A DNA stretch of 64,000 bases from Aedes albopictus. Its lineage: Eukaryota > Arthropoda > Insecta > Diptera > Culicidae. Location: the NCBI RefSeq assembly GCF_035046485.1, contig NC_085138.1, positions 43,993,464 to 44,057,463 of the forward strand, given 5' to 3'. Under the pieces are notes generated by a model, which made no database searches, was not told the DNA's origin, and saw nothing but the letters and a program-made list of their open reading frames with translations. Positions 5,371-63,170 of this stretch are shown piece by piece (the first letter of the stretch is position 1; the number at the start of each line of letters is the position of its first letter). A program made the position numbers and the translations under genes.

Positions 5371-5790
5371 CCGACTAGAAAATATATCAAATTTATATCA
5401 TATTGTGTTATGGTGTTATATTATTTTTCTATAACTTATTATGTTATTATCAACCAAGTAGGTTGATACAACTAAAATTGTAACAAAAAGAACACTGGTC
5501 TTATCAAGTTTAAAACCTATTTTGTTATAATAATATCAAAATTTTAACAGAATGTGATATGTATTTTGGCCTCAGGATTACTAGTAAATATCAAAATTTG
5601 ATACAACTTTGTAACATAACTTTTCAAATGTCGGAGACTCAAAACTAAATTATAATACAATGAGTTATAAAACAACATTTGTAACATAATGTGATATACC
5701 TAATTGAGTTATAGTATTTTGAAAACACCAAAGATGAATATCACAATTTGTTAGGATTATGTTATATTTTTGTTACAATGTTCTAGTCGG
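5371..5790. mobile_element. AT-rich MITE with CCGACTAGAA ends
   Basis: Perfect 10-bp terminal inverted repeat, CCGACTAGAA at 5371-5380 and TTCTAGTCGG at 5781-5790. The 420-bp interior is very AT-rich and full of TATCA/TGATA and GTTATA words, with no open frame. The flanking nonamers GAATCCAAC and GAACCCGTC agree at 6 of 9 positions and may be a decayed 9-bp duplication, but this is uncertain. Confidence 0.6.
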
Positions 5791-6148
5791 GAACCCGTCA
5801 TCCTCAGCATGGCTTTGCTGAGTACCTACCCGTTAGTTCATCGCTTCGATTGTATGATCAGTTGCCGCTTTCGTTTATTTTTTTTCGGTGAGCTCGCAAT
5901 ATTGCAAGGCTCGTTACGTCAAGTGTCGACCGAAGTTCCCGAGTCACTTTTTGATAATAATATCTATGCCTTTTACGTTCTCTCCAGAAATATTTTTTTA
6001 GATTAAAGGCCCGCAGGGTCGAATTATCATATACTTGTCACTTTTATTGCGCTAGATCTTAACAAAGTTAAAGGGCCAATGTTTTATGGGAAATGTTTCT
6101 CCATTGTTTCCAATTAAAAATTAAGATCGGTCTAGCCGTTCCAGACTG
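5791..6148. other. No recognisable gene
   Basis: Nothing beyond a GGCCCGCAGGGTCGA word at about 6008, which also occurs in variant form at 45602 and 46215 and belongs to a dispersed repeat. Confidence 0.4.
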
Positions 6149-23472: not shown

Positions 23473-23995
23473 AGCGTTTTGTACATGGTACATTTGGTGC
23501 AGGTGTGGATTGTTTACCGTTGTTTCTTATGGAGCCCATGTTAGCCCTTCAGATTGTGATAGTGCTGTAAAGCCGCTTCTTCCGGACAACTTTTTTTCTT
23601 CCGAATGCGGTGGGTCTGCTGTTTCCACTTCTGCTTGTAACGTTCCACGTTCTACCGGGTTCCTTGCTGCAGCATTACCGTCAGCGCTACGTCTGTTTCC
23701 TACAAAAACGCTCTGCACTCTTAGTCGATCCATTCGTTCCGTCAGCCCCGTTCCACGGTGTGATCGGTTTCGTCGTTGATGGCTGCTTTGACTGTACTTC
23801 AGCAGTCCTCTAGAGGAGCCACATCGAGCTTGTCCTCATCTGGCAATGCTGCTATGAGATTTTGCGCGTATGCTGAGGTGACATCCGGTTGAGTCAGTCT
23901 CCTTATATCGGTACCGTATCCTGTTGATTACGGAGAGTTTTGGGCACAGTTTGACCATCACCATGTAGTGGTTGTATGGTATATGTCTGACAATG
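23473..23995 (-). mobile_element. RTE-type LINE fragment, left part of a split copy
   Basis: Read on the minus strand: NHYMVMVKLCPKLSVIN (end of the endonuclease domain) from about 23985, linker sequence around 23850-23560 (GNAAARNPVERGTLQAEVETAD), then at 23545-23473 a jump to the thumb region corresponding to LRSKKIHPRTKCTMYKTL of copy 28604-29933. Most of the reverse transcriptase is deleted internally. The matching endonuclease sequence continues at 33733-34060, on the far side of the transposon at 24171-33470, so the two pieces are one insertion split apart. Confidence 0.7.
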
Positions 23996-24168: not shown

Positions 24169-24170
24169 AT

Positions 24171-24232
24171 AGGGCACTTGCTGAGTGCATATGTATTAGT
24201 GAGCCATTGGGCAGGCAAAAGTGACAGCTGCA
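24171..24232 (+). repeat. Left terminal inverted repeat of the two-gene transposon
   Basis: AGGGCACTTGCT at 24171-24182, then TGCATATGTA and CATTGGGCA. It pairs with the reverse complement of 33422-33470 with small gaps. Preceded by the AT duplication. Confidence 0.8.
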
Positions 24233-24367
24233 TAGAATGGACACGGATCGTCAAGCGAAAGTTTTTTAAAATAATTATTTTATTTTATTTAACAAATAAA
24301 TTACGCATTGTATTATATTACAAGCAAGATAATATATCTGTTTTTATTATGGCACGTTTCATTTCAG

Positions 24368-25953
24368 TGTTCAAGCGCGGTACGCGGAGAAAATCATAAA
24401 GTTTTGCCAAGGTTATGATCCCTACCAATGGAAACAAAACGAATATTCTAAAAGTTGTTTGCCGAAAAATGTATCCTACTTCGATGTTGTAGAATACCTC
24501 GTAGATCGAGAGAGCTCTTATACTCGGGAAAGTTTCAAGGCATTCAAAAGTTTGGATGCGTACAAAAATTTCAAGGCCGGATGGATCCAGTTTCTTGGTT
24601 CAAAGAGGGTTGAATCTGGATCTTTCATTGTTTTCGGAAGGGTAAACTTATCAGTTTTATCGCCAATATAGAAAATTTATGATTCTTATGTGATTACAGG
24701 TGAAGCATTCTCAAAAACTGAACCTGAAACCTACATCATGCTGGGTATCAGTAGATCCAACTGGAACGATCCAAACTGCGCATTGCGACTGTATGGCCGG
24801 GCTAGGCGAGGCATGTTCGCATGTAGGTTCAGTACTATTTGCCCTGGAACGCTGGTCTCGCGAAGAAGTGGATGACAATGAGCAATCGTGTACTGATATC
24901 CTAAACCAATGGTTAATCCCACCTAAGAAAGCCATTGATTACGCAGAAATCAAGGATATATTCAGCCAAAAAGAACCACCCATTTCAAGTTATGACTTCC
25001 AGGTACCTGAAAGCACTTCGGTTGAATTGAATGAATTTGTGATGAAACTGATCACAGAAGAAGTAAATCCTTCGGTCGGTCAATTCATTCAAACTCCCAG
25101 AAAGCGCTCAAGCAACAACACTGAGTCAAAGGATAGTGATTTTCATCCGGATCCATCTGTGTTGAAGCATCTTTTCTGTCAATTGTTCGATCCCGACTTG
25201 GTGGGGAAACCACTTATCGAGCTTCGTATGATAGGCGATTTGAAATTATGCGATTTCCACTATACCAACTCTCTAGTTGAACAAATTGTAAACTTAACTA
25301 TTTGTCAGAGTTCAAGTTGGTATTGGGAGAAGTTTCGCGCTGGAAGAATTACCGCATCGGTATTTAAAGCGGTGACACGAACTTCCTTGGAAAATCCTTC
25401 GATGTCGTTGATCAAAAGGATCTGTTATCCTGAGGACTGCAAGTTCTCATCATCTGCCACGCGATATGGATGTAATCACGAGAAGGATGCATTAGAGGCG
25501 TATGCCTTGAAGGCAATGACCGAACACTCAAATTTTCAGAGGGAAGAAACTGGCTTGCATTTGCATGCGGAGAAACCATTCTTTGGAGCATCACCGGATG
25601 CAATCACAGAGTGCGATTGTTGTGGTAAAGGAGCAGTCGAAATCAAATGTCCGTACTGTCAAATGTACGCGACTAAGAAAGGAAGTCCTGTGCAAATAAC
25701 AGAAGCTGGATATAAAATGGACCCCAATCATCAATATTTCTATCAAGTTCAGATGCAGATGTATGTGCTTGATGTAAAGTTCTGTGACTTTGTGATTTGG
25801 ACTTGTAAGGATTTTGTAGTATTAAGATTGGATCGAGACGATGAATTTTTGAAGAAGGAGTTATGTAAAGCTGAAACTTTTTTCAAAATGGTTCTACTGC
25901 CTGAGCTTCAAGGTCAGTACTACACTAAGAGTGAAAGGGTCCAGGCGGCCTAA
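24368..25953 (+). CDS. SWIM zinc finger plus YqaJ-type nuclease, transposon accessory protein
   Basis: Two exons are visible. Exon A runs from a candidate acceptor at 24367 to 24641 (AEKIIKFCQGYDPYQWKQ, VVEYLVDRESSYTRES, FIVFGR). A 58-nt intron follows at 24642-24699 (GTAAAC...TTACAG). Exon B runs 24700-25953. The first coding exon with the initiator is not resolved; ATG at 24355 is out of frame. Numbering from 24700, residues 29-41 form a SWIM finger (C-D-C...C-S-H). A YqaJ/lambda-exonuclease-like domain occupies about 205-400: WYWEKFRAGRITAS near 206, HEKDALEAY, GASPDAI near 297, AVEIKCPY near 312 (D and ExK metal ligands of the PD-(D/E)xK fold) and QVQMQMYVL near 348. All catalytic residues appear intact. 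In the known family such proteins accompany the transposase; their exact role is not established. AATAAA lies at 25988-25993. Confidence 0.85.
24642..24699 (+). other. Intron of the YqaJ-type gene
   Basis: 58 nt, donor AGG/GTAAAC and acceptor GATTACAG/GTG. Splicing joins IVFGR to VKHSQKL in frame and removes the stop codons of the unspliced sequence. This is a typical mosquito intron length. Confidence 0.8.
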
Positions 25954-26649
25954 CTGAACTGTGAATGCTTGTAAAATGAATACCACAAATAAATTGAACA
26001 ATCCGAACATACGTTTATTAATCTATTAATCTGAAATTATCGTACAAGAACCACTTTTCATTATATTCAATCGTCAGGAACTACAGAAGGGCACAGATTG
26101 ACCAAGCTACAACATACTGTCACAATTTGATCCATTAAGGACGTCTTACAAAAGTTCGTAGTTTTCTTTAGTGTGTTAATAGGAAACTTATTTTTATATA
26201 AGACTAGCTGACCCGGCAAACCATGTATTGCCCATTTTAATTGTGGCTCTTGCACTATGACACAGTTTTTCTAATGTTTTTGTTAATTTTCTTAACTTGT
26301 TCAACATATGTACATATCTACCATGAGGACGATTTGCACTGTTCAAAAATCTTGTTGATCATTTCATTCATTAATTATTAGTTGTTTGGCTCTAAAGTGT
26401 ATGTAAACTCACTTGTATATACATTGGAAGGCTGGCTCCAGAGGTACGTTATCTTCCATTTGGTACATTGATCCCCATCCGTTTGCATAATCCAATGTTC
26501 TGGACTAAGTTCATACTTCTATTAGAACATGCTACTTACCTGAGAAAGTAGTTAGTAGTTAGTTCGTATCTTATTATTATTTTTATCTTTGGTTGATTTT
26601 TTATGTGAAGGCCCACTCTTTCATAATAATGCAAAAAAAACAGCCTATT

Positions 26650-26858
26650 TTAAGGACAAGGTATTTAGAGTACATAGCTCAAAATTTCTAGAGCACCGTT
26701 TTTTGGAACCGTTGAACGGATTTGGATGAAAATGCATCACGCTAATTGTTCAGTGGTTGTCAACAGCGTGATGCATTTTAATCCAAATCCGTTCAACGGT
26801 TCTAAAAAACGGTGCTATAGAAATTTTGAGCAATGTACTCCAAATACCTTGTCCTTAA
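26650..26858. mobile_element. Foldback MITE with TTAA ends
   Basis: Arms of about 95 bp fold back: AAGGACAAGGTATTT with its complement, and CCGTTGAACGGATTTGGAT with its complement. TTAA occurs exactly at both boundaries (26650-26653, 26855-26858), which would fit a piggyBac-type target, but the TTAA may simply belong to the inverted repeat. Confidence 0.7.
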
Positions 26859-27309
26859 AAGAAGGAAAAATCTCGCATAAAGAATGCTGTTTGGTGGTTT
26901 GGTTGCTAACCAACTCTAAAGAGTAACTTAAAATGACAAATCTATCATAAAGTTCACAGTTCAACTGCCATAAACTACACAACAGCGCCACTTGAAAGAA
27001 AAACCTATGATATAAAGAAAGATACATTTGGGTATGTTGCAAATTTTAGCAGTTGGTCCGTATAGAAAATATAACAGTGTGACTTGAAAGAACAGCCTAT
27101 TACTAAAAGATGGTAAAATCTCCGATGAAGTGAGCATTATAAACAGCAGGAAGTACAACCTGTGTGACAATGAGGGCATGGTGATCATTCTGTGAATTCA
27201 ATGAACATTCGGCGTGATGTCCATTCGGGCTAATCTTTATTCGGCTCTATAAACTTCGGCCTAATAACGGTCGGCCGTACACTTCATCCTAGTTATTCAA
27301 AAATGTCTT

Positions 27310-28173
27310 TTACATTTGTGTGAGAACCCCCTCCACCCTCTGGAATGACTAACAATGTCATAGACATTTCATGCCTTCGAAAATGTCCACATGCCAAATT
27401 AGTATGTTTTGCACATATTATGCAGACATTCTCTGCATTTTGTTTTTTTTTTAGGATGGTGGAGTGTTGCTCCCAGATGAAGGAAGGGTCACAGACTTTT
27501 AACTTTTGAAGTATTTCTTTCTCTTCAAAACCCTCCCCTTCTCTGAGGTTGAAGCGTACTCAAGCCATCATGAAAACATTTTTTGCTTTCTCCACATGCC
27601 AAATTTGATTGATTGTTTCTCAAGTCATGCAGATTTTTTGTCCCCCTTTTTTAAAGGGGTGGGAGTGTTGGATCTCACACATCACGCCACCATAGAAACA
27701 TTTCCTACCTTACCTTCTAAACCCTCCACATGTCGAATTTGGTTCCATTTGCTCGATTTGTTCTCGAGTTGTGCATAAATTTCCGTTCCATTTGTATTGA
27801 AGCCCCTCTTTCCAAAGGGATAGGGGTCTCACACTACTATAGTCATAGGAACATTTATTGCCTTTTAAAACCTCCGCATGGCTAATTTGGTAACATTTAC
27901 TTATTTAGTTCTCGAATTATGCAGGTTATTACCGTTACATTTGTACGTGAGTCCCCCTTTTCAGAGGGGAAGAGGTCTCAAACACCATAGGAACACTTTT
28001 TGCCTTCTGAAACCTCCACATAGCTAATTTGTTTTCATATGCTTGGTTCTCGAGTTATTCCAAAGAGAGAAAGCGTAAAAACGTAAAAACATTCTTCATC
28101 TTCTGAGTTCTCTGCATGCCAAATTTTGTTATATTTGCTTGATTGATTCTCATGTTACACACCACCATAGAAA
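27310..28173 (+). repeat. Tandem units of about 145 bp in the 5.7-kb insertion
   Basis: Five to six diverged units. Each has a run like CCCCCTTTTCAGAGGGG, then GTCTCACACCACCATAGAAAC, CCTTCTGAAACCTCCACATG and CCAAATTTGGTTCCATTTG. Further units are at 28585-28603 plus 29934-29995, and at 30539-30650, where later insertions separate them. Confidence 0.7.
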
Positions 28174-28181
28174 CATTCGTT

Positions 28182-28584
28182 CAAGGTTGCGACCATTCAT
28201 TTGCAAAGATTTACATTCATTTGCTATTATCTCAGTTCAGAAGCATGCTATCGAAAAACAATGTATGGATGAATTTAACCTTGTAGATTTATCTGAAAGT
28301 TTGCCGAATAACATTGGGGTCGCAAACGTATACCAAAGTCGTGAGCGAGCTGTGAAGGCAACTCTCCACGCGGTGAATATAAATTTCATTCACGCTGTGG
28401 AAAGTTGCCTTCACAGCTCGCTCACGACTTTGGTATACGTTTGCGACCCCAATGTTATTCGGCAAACCTTCAGATAAAACTACAAGGTTAAATTGATCCA
28501 TACATTGTTTTTCGATAGCATGCTTCTGAACTGAGATAATAGCAAATGAATGTAAATTTTTGCAAATGAATGGTTGCAACCTTG
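28182..28584. mobile_element. hAT-like foldback MITE, copy 1
   Basis: Nearly the whole 403 bp is one hairpin with arms of about 190 bp. Ends read CAAGGTTGCGACC and GGTTGCAACCTTG. A perfect 8-bp duplication CATTCGTT flanks it (28174-28181, 28585-28592), as expected for hAT elements. The open frames found in both directions here come from the palindrome and are not genes. Copy 2 is at 58035-58437; a related element is at 37662-38060. Confidence 0.9.
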
Positions 28585-28642
28585 CATTCGTTACCTTCTG
28601 AATTCTCATTTCATTTATTTAGTTAACATCAAATTCATGATA

Positions 28643-28855
28643 CACTGAAACCTCCATTTAAGTCGGTGCATGGCTGATCGAAAATAATTTTTACCGTACA
28701 AGCAATGACAAAACTAAAAACTTTTATATTTTTTAGCACTCCGCATGACATAAAAGATTTGTCAAAAAATATAAAACTGTATAGTTTAGTCATTGCTTGC
28801 ACGGCAGAAATTATTTTCGGTCAGCCATGCACCGACTTAAATGGAGGTTTCAGTG
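28643..28855. mobile_element. Foldback MITE with TA target at the RTE stop codon
   Basis: Ends CACTGAAACCTCCATTTAAG and the reverse complement, arms about 65-70 bp, flanked by TA (28641-28642, 28856-28857). CACTG ends plus a TA target suggest a pogo/Tigger-type non-autonomous element. It lies inside RTE copy 3, so it is younger. Confidence 0.85.
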
Positions 28856-29931
28856 TAATACTGAATCAACAATTTGCCGCCATAATACTCGATTTGCAGC
28901 TGCAGCTCTCCAACGTCGGTCACGCCCAACACTCGCCAGATCACGCTCCACCTGGTCCGCCCATCGTGCTCTCTGCGCTCCACGCCTTCTTGTACCAACC
29001 GGATGGTTAGCAAACACCAACTTTGCAGGGTTGTTGTCCGGCATTCTTGCAACATGCCCTGCCCACCGTATTCTTCCGGCTTTGGCTACCTTCTGGATGC
29101 TGGGTTGGCCATAAAGTGCAGCGAGCTCGTGGTTCATCCTTCTCCGCCACACACCGTTCTCCTGCACGCCGCCGAAGATCGTCCTTAGCACCCGTCGCTC
29201 GAAAACTCCGAGTGCTTGCATGTCCTCCTCGAGCATCGTCCACGTCTCGTGCCCGTAGAGAACCAACGGTCTTATTAACGTCTTGTACATGGTACATTTC
29301 GTGCGGGGGTGAATCTTTTTTGACCGCAGTTTCTTCTGGAGCCCATAATAGGCACGACTTCCACTGATGATGCGCCTTCGTATTTCACGGCTCACGTTAT
29401 TGTCAGCCGTTAGCAAGGAACCGAGGTAGACGAATTCTTCTACCACCTCGAAAGTATCCCCGTCTATCGTAACATTGCTGCCAAGGCTTGTCCTGTCTCG
29501 CTCAGTCCCACCTACCAGCATGTACTTTGTCTTAGCCGCATTCACCACCAGTCCGACCTTTGCTGCTTCACGTTTCAGGCGGGTGTACTGTTCTGCCACC
29601 GTTCCAAATATCCTAGCAATAATATCCATGTCATCCGCAAAACATACAAATTGGCTGGATTTCGTGAAGATCGTACCCCGGCTGTTGAGCCCGGCTCGTC
29701 GCATAACACATTCCAGGGCGATGTTGAATAGTAGGCAGGAAAGTCCATCACCTTTTCGTAGTCCCCGTCGAGATTCAAATGAACTGGATAGTTCACCCGA
29801 AATCCTTACGCTGTTCTGCACACCGTCCATCGTTGCTCTTATCAGTCTAGTCAGCTTCCCGGGAAAGCTGTTCTCGTCCATAATTTTCCATAGCTCTGTG
29901 CGGTCGATACTGTCGTATGCCGCTTTGAAGT
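28850..29931 (-). CDS. Reverse transcriptase of RTE copy 3, truncated but uninterrupted
   Basis: About 360 codons without a stop. It begins at VDFKAAYDSIDRTELW (motif A), then GLRKGDGLSCLLFNIALE (motif B), FVCFADDMDIIAR (FADD catalytic box), EEFVYLGSLLTADNN, YGHETWTM, FGGVQENGVWRRRMNHEL, RWAGHVARMPDNNPAKLVF and RARWADQVERDLAS. Everything upstream of motif A, including the endonuclease, is missing because of 5' truncation, so there is no real start codon; frames reading further upstream enter host repeat. The natural end is WRQIVDSVL followed by a stop; the present stop at 28850 is supplied by the MITE. The intact frame argues that this is one of the younger LINE insertions here, though dead on arrival. 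Confidence 0.85.
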
Positions 29932-29995
29932 CGACCTTCTGAATCCTCCTCATGGCAAATTTGGTTCCACTTGCTTGATTTGTTCTCAAGTTATA

Positions 29996-30538
29996 GGGGA
30001 AAGATGGGCATAACGCCACGCCTAAGCATATGCGGTAATAAACCTCAAATTATACTGTTTTTAAGGCTGTATTTTGCCTTGGAGAGTAGTTTATTCCCTT
30101 ACCAAAGAGACTTGAACATTTGGTCCGCGTGCCCACAAAATTTCCAATTCAAATAAACAATACAAAAAAGTGTTACTTTTTAGGTGCCGGAAAACTGTAG
30201 GAGTCAAAACGCCAGCTGGTATTTCCTGCTTTGACTTGTTGTGAAATACCAAGGGGCTCCATCGAATTCTTCCAAGCAGCAAATGAAGGAGTAGGAGGCA
30301 CGTGATAGTTTGATGGGTTGATTCCATATAATCAGCGCGCAATGTCTTAATTTCTGTGCGCTGCAAATTAGGGAATCTTTCCAAATGTGGAAAATCGTCA
30401 TTTTCCAAGCTTTTCTTTCGATAATATCAGCCGTTCTTAGGCTTAACCTGCTCAGTTTTAGTTCTAGTTTAATTGCATCTAACGAAAACCTCCACAATAT
30501 TATGGAATTGCTTGATGGCGTTATGCCCGCAGTTCCCC
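29996..30538. mobile_element. 543-bp element with GGGGAA ends and TA target
   Basis: Inverted ends GGGGAAAGATGGGCATAACG and CGTTATGCCCGCAGTTCCCC, flanked by TA (29994-29995, 30539-30540). The interior has no clear protein. It sits in the 145-bp tandem repeat. Confidence 0.8.
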
Positions 30539-30744
30539 TACAGATATTTCCATTTTATTTGAATAGGAGGCCCCTTTTCGGAGGGGGAGGGGTCTGAAAC
30601 TATCATATGAACCTTCCCCGTTCAAAAAAAAAAAAAAACCCTGCATGCAAATTTCCATACCAATCGGTCCAGTAGTTTCCGAATCCATAAGGGTCAGAAA
30701 GACAGAAATTCATGTATATATTTATAGATTTATATAGATTTGAG

Positions 30745-31600
30745 CGTTAGTTCAGGTTTACAATGCCTTTTCTGTACCATGGGCTTAGATCCGTCTGGGT
30801 TGGCGCGGCTGAATCCGAGATCAGTCCTTCCGGTAGATCTCGACAAACACACGGTTGTTACCGTTGGGTAATATTTGTCGTATTTTGTTTCATGAATTCG
30901 TGAATTTCGTGAATTTAGGGAAGCGTATGTTAAGTTTGCGCAAACTCCAACGGTCGTTTTGTTTTCCGCGCGTGGGCGGTGATGCGCCTGCGTATGGAAA
31001 TACACCGCCGGAGTACGATGGGTGGCTGACTGCACTGTAGTACAAATGGAAAAGGTTGCCCGAGAGAGTGAGCGTACCTTTGCGGGGGATAAAGGGGGAT
31101 CATGAGTTTTCAACTCACTCATGATCTGCTTGCGCGAGCCTTTATCCCCCGCGATAGCCGAGAAAGGAGACAGAGGATATAGTGATGAGAGTCGAAGGCT
31201 CCCTCGTATTTCTCCACGTTTTGCCGTCGTATTCCGACCTCGTGACCGGTTGTTTCGTCCCTTCGATTAGGTACCCAGTGCACATCGAGCGGGACAAAAT
31301 CCCGGGGCAGTGTTGCCCTTCTGGTGTCCTGCCATCCACGGCCATCTCCCGGCTGGTGCTCATCTTCCCGCGGCCACCTCGTTCATCGAAACCGAGGCCG
31401 CGTGACTGAATTCCCGCCTGTACTTCTCCTCAGGCAAAACCCATCACCATCTCAGCCGCTCGTTCCGCACCCGGCTGTCGAAAACCGACTATTTTGGACC
31501 GAAGCACGGGAAATTCACGTGTTCGGATCTCCACCAGATAGGCCTGTTTCCCTCTGAAATCGAGCCGGTGCCGAAAATTAGGGTCTAATACGATGAACCT
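30745..31600. other. GC-richer segment of unknown origin
   Basis: Lies between two tail-like and head-like repeat sequences. Contains an inverted pair GCGGGGGATAAAG (about 31082) and CTTTATCCCCCGC (about 31138). Open frames are present but resemble no known protein. It may be captured sequence or a separate insertion. Confidence 0.35.
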
Positions 31601-31856
31601 ACGCGTGAGCAAACATTGTATTGCCAATTCAAATTTGACAATTATTGAGCTCACTGGAGCGCCGCACTCTAGATTGGTTTTGTTTGCGACCGTGTTGAAC
31701 TTCTCTCTTAGCTCATTTCCGGTTCATTTCTTTGGGAGTCCCCCTTTCCAGCGACCGGAAGATTCTCACACTATGCTAAGAACCTTCCCCGGTCCCAACA
31801 GTACCCACATACAAAATTTCACACCGATCGGTTCAGTAGTTTCCGAATGGATAGCG

Positions 31857-31859
31857 GTC

Positions 31860-31891
<32 letters not shown>

Positions 31892-31908
31892 CGACAGACA
31901 GACAGACG
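31857..31908 (+). repeat. (ACAG)n microsatellite
   Basis: Thirteen or so ACAG/GACA units with one interruption, forming the tail of the 5.7-kb insertion. On the minus strand it produces the false peptide CLSVCLSV at the end of the transposase frame. Confidence 0.9.
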
Positions 31909-33421
31909 GAAATTCATTTTTATATATATAGATTTTATACTTGTTTCGTAACTGGGCTATGACTCGCTCGACGTGAATTCTTACATTTGCTAACTTTCGC
32001 GTTTTTTCTATGTCAAGTGGATGTAATTGATCTTGTCCAACCGTAAAAGCAGGAAGTAGCAGCTCTACACCCGCATTTTCTACGTAGTTTTTAATTAAAA
32101 ATCCCCTGTCAGCCATTATGTAGTCTCCTTTTTGCATTTTGTTCAACAGACCAGATTTTTCAGTAATAAACTTATCACTTGCACGACCACCAAACGCGTT
32201 TGAAATGAAGATGATAGTTCCATTAGGAGCTATTCCAATTAAATATTTAACGGTATGAGAATGTTTGTAGTTCGACCACATCTGTGCTGCTTGCAATACC
32301 TCGCTGGGTTTTTCGGTAAATATTTCAAAACAGTCTATGACTACCGAGACCTTATTGCCGAAATGCCGCTGGAAGCACTCTGGCATCGATTTCTGAACCG
32401 ATTCACGGGAAGGCCAACTCACAAGACCTTTCAGCCTTTGAAACATCACGTAAATGCATTTTTGATAATATCTCGATACTGTGCTAACGTGCAATCCACT
32501 CATGTAAGCGATCAATGTTAAATCAATATCTAGTCTAAGTTTAGACAAAGTAATAAGAAAAATTTGAAATTTAGAGCTGTTACATGGTGCTGGAATATGT
32601 GGCTCCAAAAACTCATACAAGAATTTCAAAGTTTTGTGATTGAGTGCTGTAAAATATTTACACTTGTCATCATTTTTCCCAAAATCCTCAAAACTGATAC
32701 ACAGAAATGGTTGATGTCTGTCTCGCATAAGTTGCATCTCTCTTCGTAGTTGTTTGATTTCATCTTCGAGCTCCGACACTTTATCAGCAGGGCCAGGTAT
32801 CTCTGACGCATCGTCAAGTAGAACCGACGCCAGAGCGGCTTTTACCGTAGCCTCCTTATTATCGTTCCGTCTGGTCACACGTTCAAATCTATCGATAGCA
32901 GTTGGCGTAATCCGATTTACGTATCCCAACTTCTGATTCGGCACCCAGTCAGGATTCATTTCATCCAAGAGATCTGCACTTCGCCCTGTTTAGAAAAAAA
33001 ACACTAAATTTTAAAGAAACAGAAGTAAAAACTGATAGATCTACCTGAGATGAAATGTTGTGAACAAACAACCGTCGATGGCCATTTCTCTGGTACCAAG
33101 TCGGCTCGCTTTATCGCATTAACCCAAGCGATTTGTCGTTTTTTCGATAATTCCTCCCTGTTCTCGGTGCGCTTATCAATCTGTGGGAAGCGAAACCATT
33201 TTTCGCCATCACGATCTCCACGCTTGCTGCAACCGAAAATTGCACACGTTCTAGGCACTATTTCAAAGAGAACATGCATGAATATCATTTATCACTAGTT
33301 TCTTAACTATTCAATCTATACTTACTGCTTTTTGCGTAAAAAATTATCGGATATATTATAGAAAAACTTAAGTTTTATTTTTACTCCGCTTTTGCTGCAC
33401 CTAAACTACGAATGTAAACAA

Positions 33422-33470
33422 GCGATGTGTGCCCAACAGACGTTGTACATGTGTGTGTAGCAAGAGCCCT
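33422..33470 (-). repeat. Right terminal inverted repeat of the two-gene transposon
   Basis: Ends AGCAAGAGCCCT at 33459-33470, followed by the AT duplication. TGTGCCCAAC and TACATGTGTG further in pair with the left end. Confidence 0.8.
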
Positions 33471-33472
33471 AT

Positions 33473-57606: not shown

Positions 57607-58486
57607 TGACAGAGAACCCTTGGAGCCCCCTCCCCTGAGATCTCTTCAATCTTCGTAAGACCCCCAGATACTGCTCTGAAACCCCCTGGGGCTCACTGAA
57701 ACTGCCACGAGACCCCCAAGATCCTGTTAAAAACCCCTGGATCCCCTGAAATGCCTCTGAGATCTCGTGGTACCCCCGCACCCCTCTAAAATACCATGGA
57801 ACTCATGGAACGCCCATGAGACTCCCTGAAACTCTTTTGAACCCACCTGAATCACCTCTGAGACCCTGGGTATTGTGATTTCTAGTCTAATTTGGTGTAG
57901 TTTGAGCAAAACTTTGAATTACTGTGTTGAAGAGGAAAGAAACGGAGAACCCACTAGAACCCACTAGAGAACTCGTAGTGCCACCTTTGAAAGCCTCTTA
58001 TAGTTCCTGAAGCGCCCCTGATACTCCCTAAAACCAAGGTTGCGACCATTCATTTGCAAAGATTTCCATTCATTTGCTATTATCTCAGTTCAGAAGCATG
58101 CTATCGAAAAACAATGTATGGATGAATTAAACCTTGTAGTTTTATCTGAAAGTTTGCCGAATAACATTGGGGTCGCACACGCATTCCAAAGTCGTGAGCT
58201 AGCTGTGAAGGCAACTCTCCACGCGGTGAATGTAAAATTCATTCAAGCTGTGGAAAGTTGCCTTCAAAGCTCGCTCACGACTTTGGAATGCGTGTGCGAC
58301 CCCAATGTTATTCGGCAAACTTTCAGATAAAACTACAAGGTTTAATTCATCCATACATTGTTTTTCTATAGCATGCTTCTGAACTGAGATAATTGAAAAT
58401 GAATGTAAATCTTTGCAAATGAATGGTCGCAACCTTGCCTAAAACTCCCTGAGACTTCCTAGAACACCCCTGAGACCTCCAGGTCC
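57607..58486 (-). repeat. Second type of degenerate array, reverse, split by a MITE
   Basis: CCCCTGAAACGCCTCTGAGA-like units, the reverse complement of the array at 56389. The hAT-like MITE at 58035-58437 is inserted in it and duplicates CCTAAAAC. Ends at RTE sequence near 58487. Confidence 0.6.
58035..58437. mobile_element. hAT-like foldback MITE, copy 2
   Basis: Ends CAAGGTTGCGACC and GGTCGCAACCTTG, arms about 190 bp, with a perfect 8-bp duplication CCTAAAAC (58027-58034, 58438-58445). Same length (403 bp) as the copy at 28182-28584. Confidence 0.92.
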
Positions 58487-62556: not shown

Positions 62557-62578
62557 AAAAAAAAAGGCGGCGCTTTTT

Positions 62579-63170
62579 TCTCCCGAAAGAGGCGGGTCTG
62601 CTGTTTCCACTTCTGTTTGTAACGTTCCACGTTCTGTCGAGTCCCTTGCTGCAGCATTTCCGCCCTCGCTGCGTTCTTTTCCTCGTTCTGCACTCTTCGT
62701 CGAACCATTTGTTCCGTCGAATCCGTTCAACGTACCCGATGGTGCTCTCGGCTGCGTCGTTGATGGCTGCTTTCACTGTACTCCAGCACTCCTCTAGAGG
62801 GGCCACATCGAGCTCGCCCTCGTCTGGCAACGCGGCTTCGAGATTCTGCGCGTATGCTGAGGCGACATCCGGTTGCTTCAGTCGCTCTAGGTTGTACCGT
62901 GACGGTCACCGGTACCGTACATTGTTCATGACGGAGAGTTTTGGGCGCAGTTTGATCACCACCAGGTAGTGTTTGGAGTCGATGTTAGCGCCACGAAAGG
63001 TCCTGATGTCGATAATGTCGGAAAAGTGTCGTCCGTCAATCAGAACCTGTTTAATTTGCGATTCCGTCTGCTGTGGTGATCTCTACGTGTAACGATTAGT
63101 AAGGGTGTGTTCGGAAGGTGCCACGTCAACTGTGTTATGGCTGTATTTTCCCACCAGGCCAAAACTACCA
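62579..63170 (-). pseudogene. Endonuclease and linker remains of RTE copy 4
   Basis: See the copy as a whole. The linker frame at 62830-62549 reads DEGELDVAPLEECWSTVKAA, INDAAESTIGYVERIRRNKW, FDEECRTR and then shifts. A second frame carries NEEKNAARAEMLQQGTRQNV. The endonuclease part above 62900 needs two frame changes. Confidence 0.8.

Follow-up and report, generated by a model that had tools for sequence, protein, structure and literature searches.

Comparison with described transposons

ISL2EU transposons belong to the PHIS superfamily, and 25 families have been described that make AT target site duplications (TSDs) and carry a THAP/helix-turn-helix (HTH)/DDE transposase gene paired with a YqaJ gene (PMC4482050, Han et al. 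2015). The same gene pair is repeated in PMC9179366. According to the 2015 account, the second gene has no known function and its link to transposition is unclear, and a literature search short of a full survey found no published work that settles the role of the nuclease. Here we analyze a 64,000-nucleotide stretch of the Aedes albopictus genome (contig NC_085138.1; hereafter the window), in which an initial annotation had proposed a two-gene ISL2EU-type transposon at positions 24171–33470. In its domain content, convergent gene order, ends, and AT duplication, the element matches the definition given in PMC4482050. Based on the YqaJ pairing and the AT duplication, the element is, with high confidence, a degraded ISL2EU. 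It had also been put forward as an under-described system, which holds for the role of the nuclease only; the element class is already catalogued, and what is new is one broken member and genome-wide evidence on pairing, co-inheritance, and conserved residues.

The element shares with the ISL2EU elements of animals an AT duplication, a THAP, HTH, and DDE transposase, and a YqaJ exonuclease (PMC4482050). It differs from the published group in length (~3.5 kb, or 3575 bp, without its nested insert, versus a group mean of ~4.8 kb), in being broken, in flanks that read T-AT-C rather than the proposed A-AT-T, and in terminal inverted repeats (TIRs) that start with AGGGC. In PMC4482050, TIRs usually open with GG, as a tendency and not a rule, and a preferred target of A|AT|T is speculated and backed by empty sites. 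Spy, the sister clade of ISL2EU, has a related DDE transposase and a cut-and-paste mechanism (PMC11304231), but is described as having neither a target duplication nor a YqaJ gene (PMC4482050); in human cells, its transposase suffices for it to move (PMC11304231). PIF/Harbinger elements also have a related DDE transposase and a second gene, but that gene is Myb/SANT and the duplication is 3-bp TWA. KolobokE, from a different superfamily, is a DDE transposon that carries a lambda-exonuclease-like nuclease (PMC9587614). The RAG1L-RAG2L transposon has a convergent DDE gene and accessory gene (PMC7204232), but its transposase is unrelated, RAG2 is not a nuclease, and the protein in the window has no PHD finger.

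Pairing and co-inheritance of the two genes

The genome (1.344 Gb, including three large contigs of 338, 519, and 450 Mb) was searched with each protein. At least 97 matches were obtained apiece and merged into at least 86 transposase and at least 66 nuclease loci; these lower bounds count sequences, not independent events, and include some duplicates (e.g., two on contig C1295). A nuclease locus occurs within 2 kb of 43 of the 86 transposase loci and within 10 kb of 48. All 48 neighboring pairs are convergent, compared to a random expectation of ~0.08 pairs. The two genes are stably paired across many families of one genome, rather than being found consistently in separate elements.

Both genes lie within a single AT-flanked inverted-repeat unit in the window, in loci L020 and L021, and in L007. 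L020 and L021 are 99.8% identical across 4228 bp, a sign of recent movement. Their TIRs start with GAAC on the left and GGAC on the right, and those of L007 with CCAC. Target flanks are T-AT-C in the window, C-AT-A in L020, and A-AT-A in L021, from a sample of only four insertions. A scan of eight merged elements for AT-bounded inverted ends identified ends for L007 only, and none for L003, L004, L005, L006, L010, L024, or L028; comparison of copies revealed one border for L008/L009 and another for L006/L017. When merged with L034, L007 has unusually long inverted ends (bases 597–765 and 5730–5897, 169 bp, 98%).

Distances and trees were compared for 15 families picked for having both genes, a set that carries no information about the frequency of pair loss. 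Protein distances for transposase and nuclease are correlated (Mantel r = 0.82, P = 0.0002; r = 0.79 without the outlier L030). Maximum-likelihood trees have 6 of 12 splits in common, including the three main clades L004-L008-L024, L005-L007-L010, and L006-L016-L019-L021-L025-L027. The two proteins also have neighboring gene numbers in the tick Ornithodoros turicata (LOC135374721 and LOC135374722), with contigs of equal length recorded for both. Judging from the sequences, the pair is old. Both proteins had been suggested to be maintained together, which does not apply to the broken copy in the window but is borne out across families by pairing, residues, trees, and distances.

Ratios of nonsynonymous to synonymous change (dN/dS) between near-identical copies range from 0.15 to 1.41 for YqaJ where defined, with too few changes to be of use. 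The L005/L023 comparison (40 synonymous and 105 nonsynonymous changes) probably reflects a frame-shifted copy. Values of 0.0 between families are saturation artefacts.

One very divergent pair, L030 (C2:152437099-152440884), differs from the other pairs at ~70% of residues; it is still convergent and has kept its active-site residues except Q355. Two transposase-like matches, C1:67473908-67474516 (485-residue frame) and C3:58625102-58625572 (486-residue frame), have no YqaJ gene within 10 kb; they could be genes of the host or PHIS elements of another kind. Viral contigs scanned with both proteins yielded no confirmed relatives; in one scan, four pattern matches failed tblastn.

Conserved features of the nuclease

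The nuclease matches the Pfam families YqaJ (PF09588, E value 9e-20) and Viral_alk_exo (5.5e-12). Its catalytic D, E, and K, said in the initial annotation to be in place, are present in all 22 copies in the genome and in 48–49 of 50 aligned relatives. Active-site and 5'-phosphate-pocket residues of the lambda-exonuclease family are also retained, with equivalence assigned by sequence alignment and the lambda positions taken from PMC7496540. Exceptions in the residue table, in which six rows do not reach the CxC/CxH part, are two replacements of E263 (H in L007, S in L023). The modeled structure has the predicted fold of the lambda-exonuclease family, in a comparison where families missing from the match list are not thereby excluded, and the nearest solved structures are processive end-loading exonucleases. 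In intact relatives, the second gene quite probably encodes an active 5'-to-3' exonuclease.

A CxCx7CxH motif is kept in 47–50 of the 50 aligned relatives. The SWIM domain that had been proposed for this part stands at the level of the motif, and the Pfam listings at E ≤ 0.01 for the protein in the window and the 50 aligned proteins do not include the SWIM model; THAP, DDE_Tnp_4, and YqaJ were all identified with Pfam. This N-terminal CxCx7CxH part is an addition relative to lambda exonuclease, LHK-Exo, and the herpesvirus alkaline nuclease. Many relatives also differ from these enzymes by a C-terminal PHD finger, and the element has no annealing protein.

The PHD pattern is found in 22 of the 50 aligned relatives (among them P0002, P0005, and P0088), and the Pfam PHD family in 15. 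The PHD part of the nuclease profile matches ING1 with an E value of 1.7e-17. Among the 22, there is a tryptophan ahead of the FH motif in 21 and an aromatic residue ahead of the first CxC in 20, sites which we take to be methyl-lysine cage positions. ING PHD fingers read H3K4me3, as does the PHD finger of RAG2. The protein in the window has no PHD finger, and no PHD-like frame was identified in 75 loci, for some of which the nuclease 3' end was not covered. A literature search on titles and the starts of abstracts found no report there of a PHD finger with ISL2EU or YqaJ.

Element borders and gene structure

The element extends from 24171 to 33470 as one DNA transposon with both genes inside. 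Its left TIR (AGGGCACTTGCT, 24171–24182, forward strand) was identified by motif search and a shuffle test, and its right TIR (AGGGCTCTTGCT, 33459–33470, reverse strand) by motif search, with the border backed by a second copy. These 12-bp inverted ends are identical at 11 of 12 positions, and the pattern AGGGCNCTTGCT has only two matches in the window, which are the two TIRs. Copies of the AT TSD flank them at 24169–24170 and 33471–33472, read from the flanking letters and, on the right, also from the second copy. When the two 430-bp edge regions were doublet-shuffled 500 times, an AT-bounded inverted pair of 12-mers with no more than one mismatch arose between them once. The inverted ends and AT duplication proposed for the element thus stand. 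The TIRs begin with AGGGC and do not follow the GG tendency of ISL2EU.

The second copy of the right end (C2:303666638-303666726) is on another chromosome and is 97% identical over 89 bases (query bases 6–94). Agreement ends at AT|AGGGCTCTTGC (the AT|AGGGC border) and the flank beyond differs, which fixes the right border; no relatives with ends elsewhere were found. At the left end, a genome-wide DNA search returned no further copies and no miniature inverted-repeat transposable elements with this end, but the search skips common words and absence is unproven. The expectation of end-sharing copies was confirmed on the right and not on the left, and because the left end has no second copy, its border rests on the TIR and AT. 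The other copy of this family (L028, L043, L075) is broken, with no YqaJ gene found in the 3 kb beyond. A repeat with 79% identity links the left flank of the element (23591–23973) to the far end of the window (62574–62975).

The YqaJ gene is on the forward strand. Its exon for the N-terminal part (24368–24641) was read from the sequence and the start of relative P0003, and is followed by a 58-bp GTAAAC...TTACAG intron (24642–24699) that agrees with the join in P0003. The main exon (24700–25953, TAA at 25951–25953) encodes the CxCx7CxH part and the lambda-exonuclease-type nuclease, as supported by Pfam, conservation, the structural model, and fold comparison, and an AATAAA was read at 25988–25993. 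A further exon, with an ATG near 24237, is likely at the 5' end of this gene: a Toxorhynchites relative begins MINMDRQDVKARYAEK, and a similar ATG GAC ACG GAT CGT CAA occurs at 24237 in the window. No in-frame GT-AG junction for this exon was found by eye.

The transposase gene is on the reverse strand. Exon 1 (33045–33288) encodes the THAP domain (PF05485, E value 2.3e-9), in agreement with Aedes aegypti P0121, and is separated by a 59-bp intron (32986–33044, read from the sequence) from exon 2 (31937–32985), which encodes an HTH-like region and the DDE_Tnp_4 catalytic domain (PF13359, E value 9e-43) and was delimited by Pfam and genome alignment. HTH_Tnp_4 scores 26.5 bits in the window (E value 4.7e-6), slightly below the 27-bit cut-off, and 29.6 bits in P0121. 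The D-D-E triad is in place as annotated, with spacings of 74 and 46; its second D is replaced by V in one row of the residue table, L006. A C-terminal piece (LYKNKFPINTLKK...SVVPDD; 26067–26201, TGA at 26067–26069) was identified by comparison with intact P0121, and the AATAAA of the gene was read at 26014–26019. The closest named relatives are Aedes aegypti LOC110681527 (82%) and a Toxorhynchites protein (76%).

The two genes are convergent. The compact layout described initially was recovered in full, with 113 bp between the stop codons, an AATAAA on each strand, and introns of 58 and 59 bp. Both short introns are confirmed, and the count of one per gene probably falls short for YqaJ given its further 5' exon.

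Nested insert and decay of the copy

An insert of ~5.7 kb (approximately 26202–31936), identified by repeat and Pfam scans, consists of other repeats that are not part of the transposon. The proposal of 24171–33470 as one transposon is accordingly correct in its borders, but this share of the span is foreign. The insert divides the transposase between '...NKYKI' and 'LYKNKF...', and the separated piece translates as LYKNKFPINTLKKTTNFCKTSLMDQIVTVCCSLVNLCPSVVPDD*, matching the C-terminus of intact P0121. The nuclease lacks ~8 residues after EIKCPYC when compared to P0001, which comes from a public assembly and is 96% identical to it. Because the transposase is split and the nuclease is short of these residues, the copy in the window is dead.

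Within the insert, a Pfam RVT_1 reverse-transcriptase fragment on the reverse strand (28850–30049, E value 2e-15) is likely a non-LTR element. The insert also has three hairpin repeats: one of ~400 bp (28182–28584; 197-nt arms, 95% complementary) with a 95% copy at 58035–58438, and two that are near-perfect (26648–26860, 96-nt arms; 28641–28857, 94-nt arms).

Possible roles of the nuclease

Resection of donor breaks is a plausible role for the nuclease, though short of probable. The transposase would bind the element ends, excise the element, and rejoin it at AT. The nuclease would load on the 5'-phosphorylated double-strand ends bared by excision and degrade the 5' strand, leaving 3' tails that could steer repair of the empty donor away from end joining and toward recombination or toward synthesis that uses the sister or homologue as template. 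Repaired in this way, the donor would in many cases regain the element, which would increase its copy number. The nuclease probably has an auxiliary function, modulating the outcome and not completing the cut, because the nuclease-free Spy transposes on its transposase alone. KolobokE also has a lambda-exonuclease-like nuclease, an indication that transposons have benefited from this type of enzyme on more than one occasion.

Several observations weigh against this explanation. The resection role is based on homology, and the copy in the window, with its split transposase and nuclease deletion, is itself incapable of it. No partner occurs within 10 kb of 38 of the 86 transposase loci and 18 of the 66 YqaJ loci, many of which are fragments and not all of which were sorted. 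Both ends are known for only four elements from three families. Half of the splits are not shared between the two trees, and some of these are fairly well supported, although the differences are mostly shallow; L016 and L021 group with 100/100 support in the transposase tree and not in the nuclease tree. Some exchange of genes between families may have occurred. We therefore put forward the explanation as a whole, a degraded ISL2EU with a stable gene pair and an exonuclease that resects donor breaks, only tentatively.

Two other roles seem unlikely, to a similar degree. Tn7 TnsA is a precedent for a nuclease that partners a transposase, and the YqaJ protein could likewise cut or trim the non-transferred 5' strand at the ends, letting the DDE enzyme finish excision. 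A PD-(D/E)xK fold beside a DDE transposase, convergent in every pair, and the co-inheritance of the genes are consistent with such a partnership, but the solved structures nearest to the protein belong to processive end-loading exonucleases, their 5'-phosphate pocket is retained, and transposition in the Spy clade proceeds without a nuclease (PMC11304231, PMC4482050). Alternatively, the second protein may mainly bind DNA or chromatin, with nuclease activity secondary, like the Myb-like protein of Harbinger, which is required for transposition in vitro (PMC9179366). The conserved CxCx7CxH motif and the ING-like PHD finger that 22 of 50 relatives carry fit a recruiter, but no part of the protein is more constrained than its catalytic residues, some of which should be missing if it acted purely as a recruiter.

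It is more doubtful that the nuclease targets insertion intermediates, extrachromosomal element DNA (e.g., failed excision products), or host defence instead of the donor break. Excised element DNA is also linear and 5'-phosphorylated, and other transposons have different nucleases, with a 3'-end degrading role proposed for that of KolobokD (PMC9587614), but degrading its own excised DNA would hurt the spread of the element, and no evidence in this analysis bears on this directly. That the genes are chance neighbors, a host YqaJ gene or separate element adjoining a transposase, is compatible with the 38 partnerless transposase loci but is refuted by the excess of convergent pairs (48 of 48 versus ~0.08 expected), by the AT-bounded units that hold both genes, and by the correlated distances.

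The donor-break resection reading can be extended, speculatively and with a low likelihood of being right in full, to ISL2EU as its own repair-pathway switch. A lambda-type 5'-to-3' exonuclease, in many animals held at active chromatin through a PHD finger of the ING type that resembles H3K4me3 readers, would resect breaks in open, template-rich chromatin and make cut-and-paste transposition net-replicative. The arrangement would be an independent parallel to RAG1/RAG2, in which a DDE transposase likewise has a convergent partner with a PHD finger.

Paired families and the retention of the residues with which lambda exonuclease binds a 5' phosphate and cuts make the role of the second gene testable. 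If transposons encode resection, such nucleases could boost homology-directed repair at transposon-made breaks, and the choice of repair at the donor site would be a trait of the element and not of its host.

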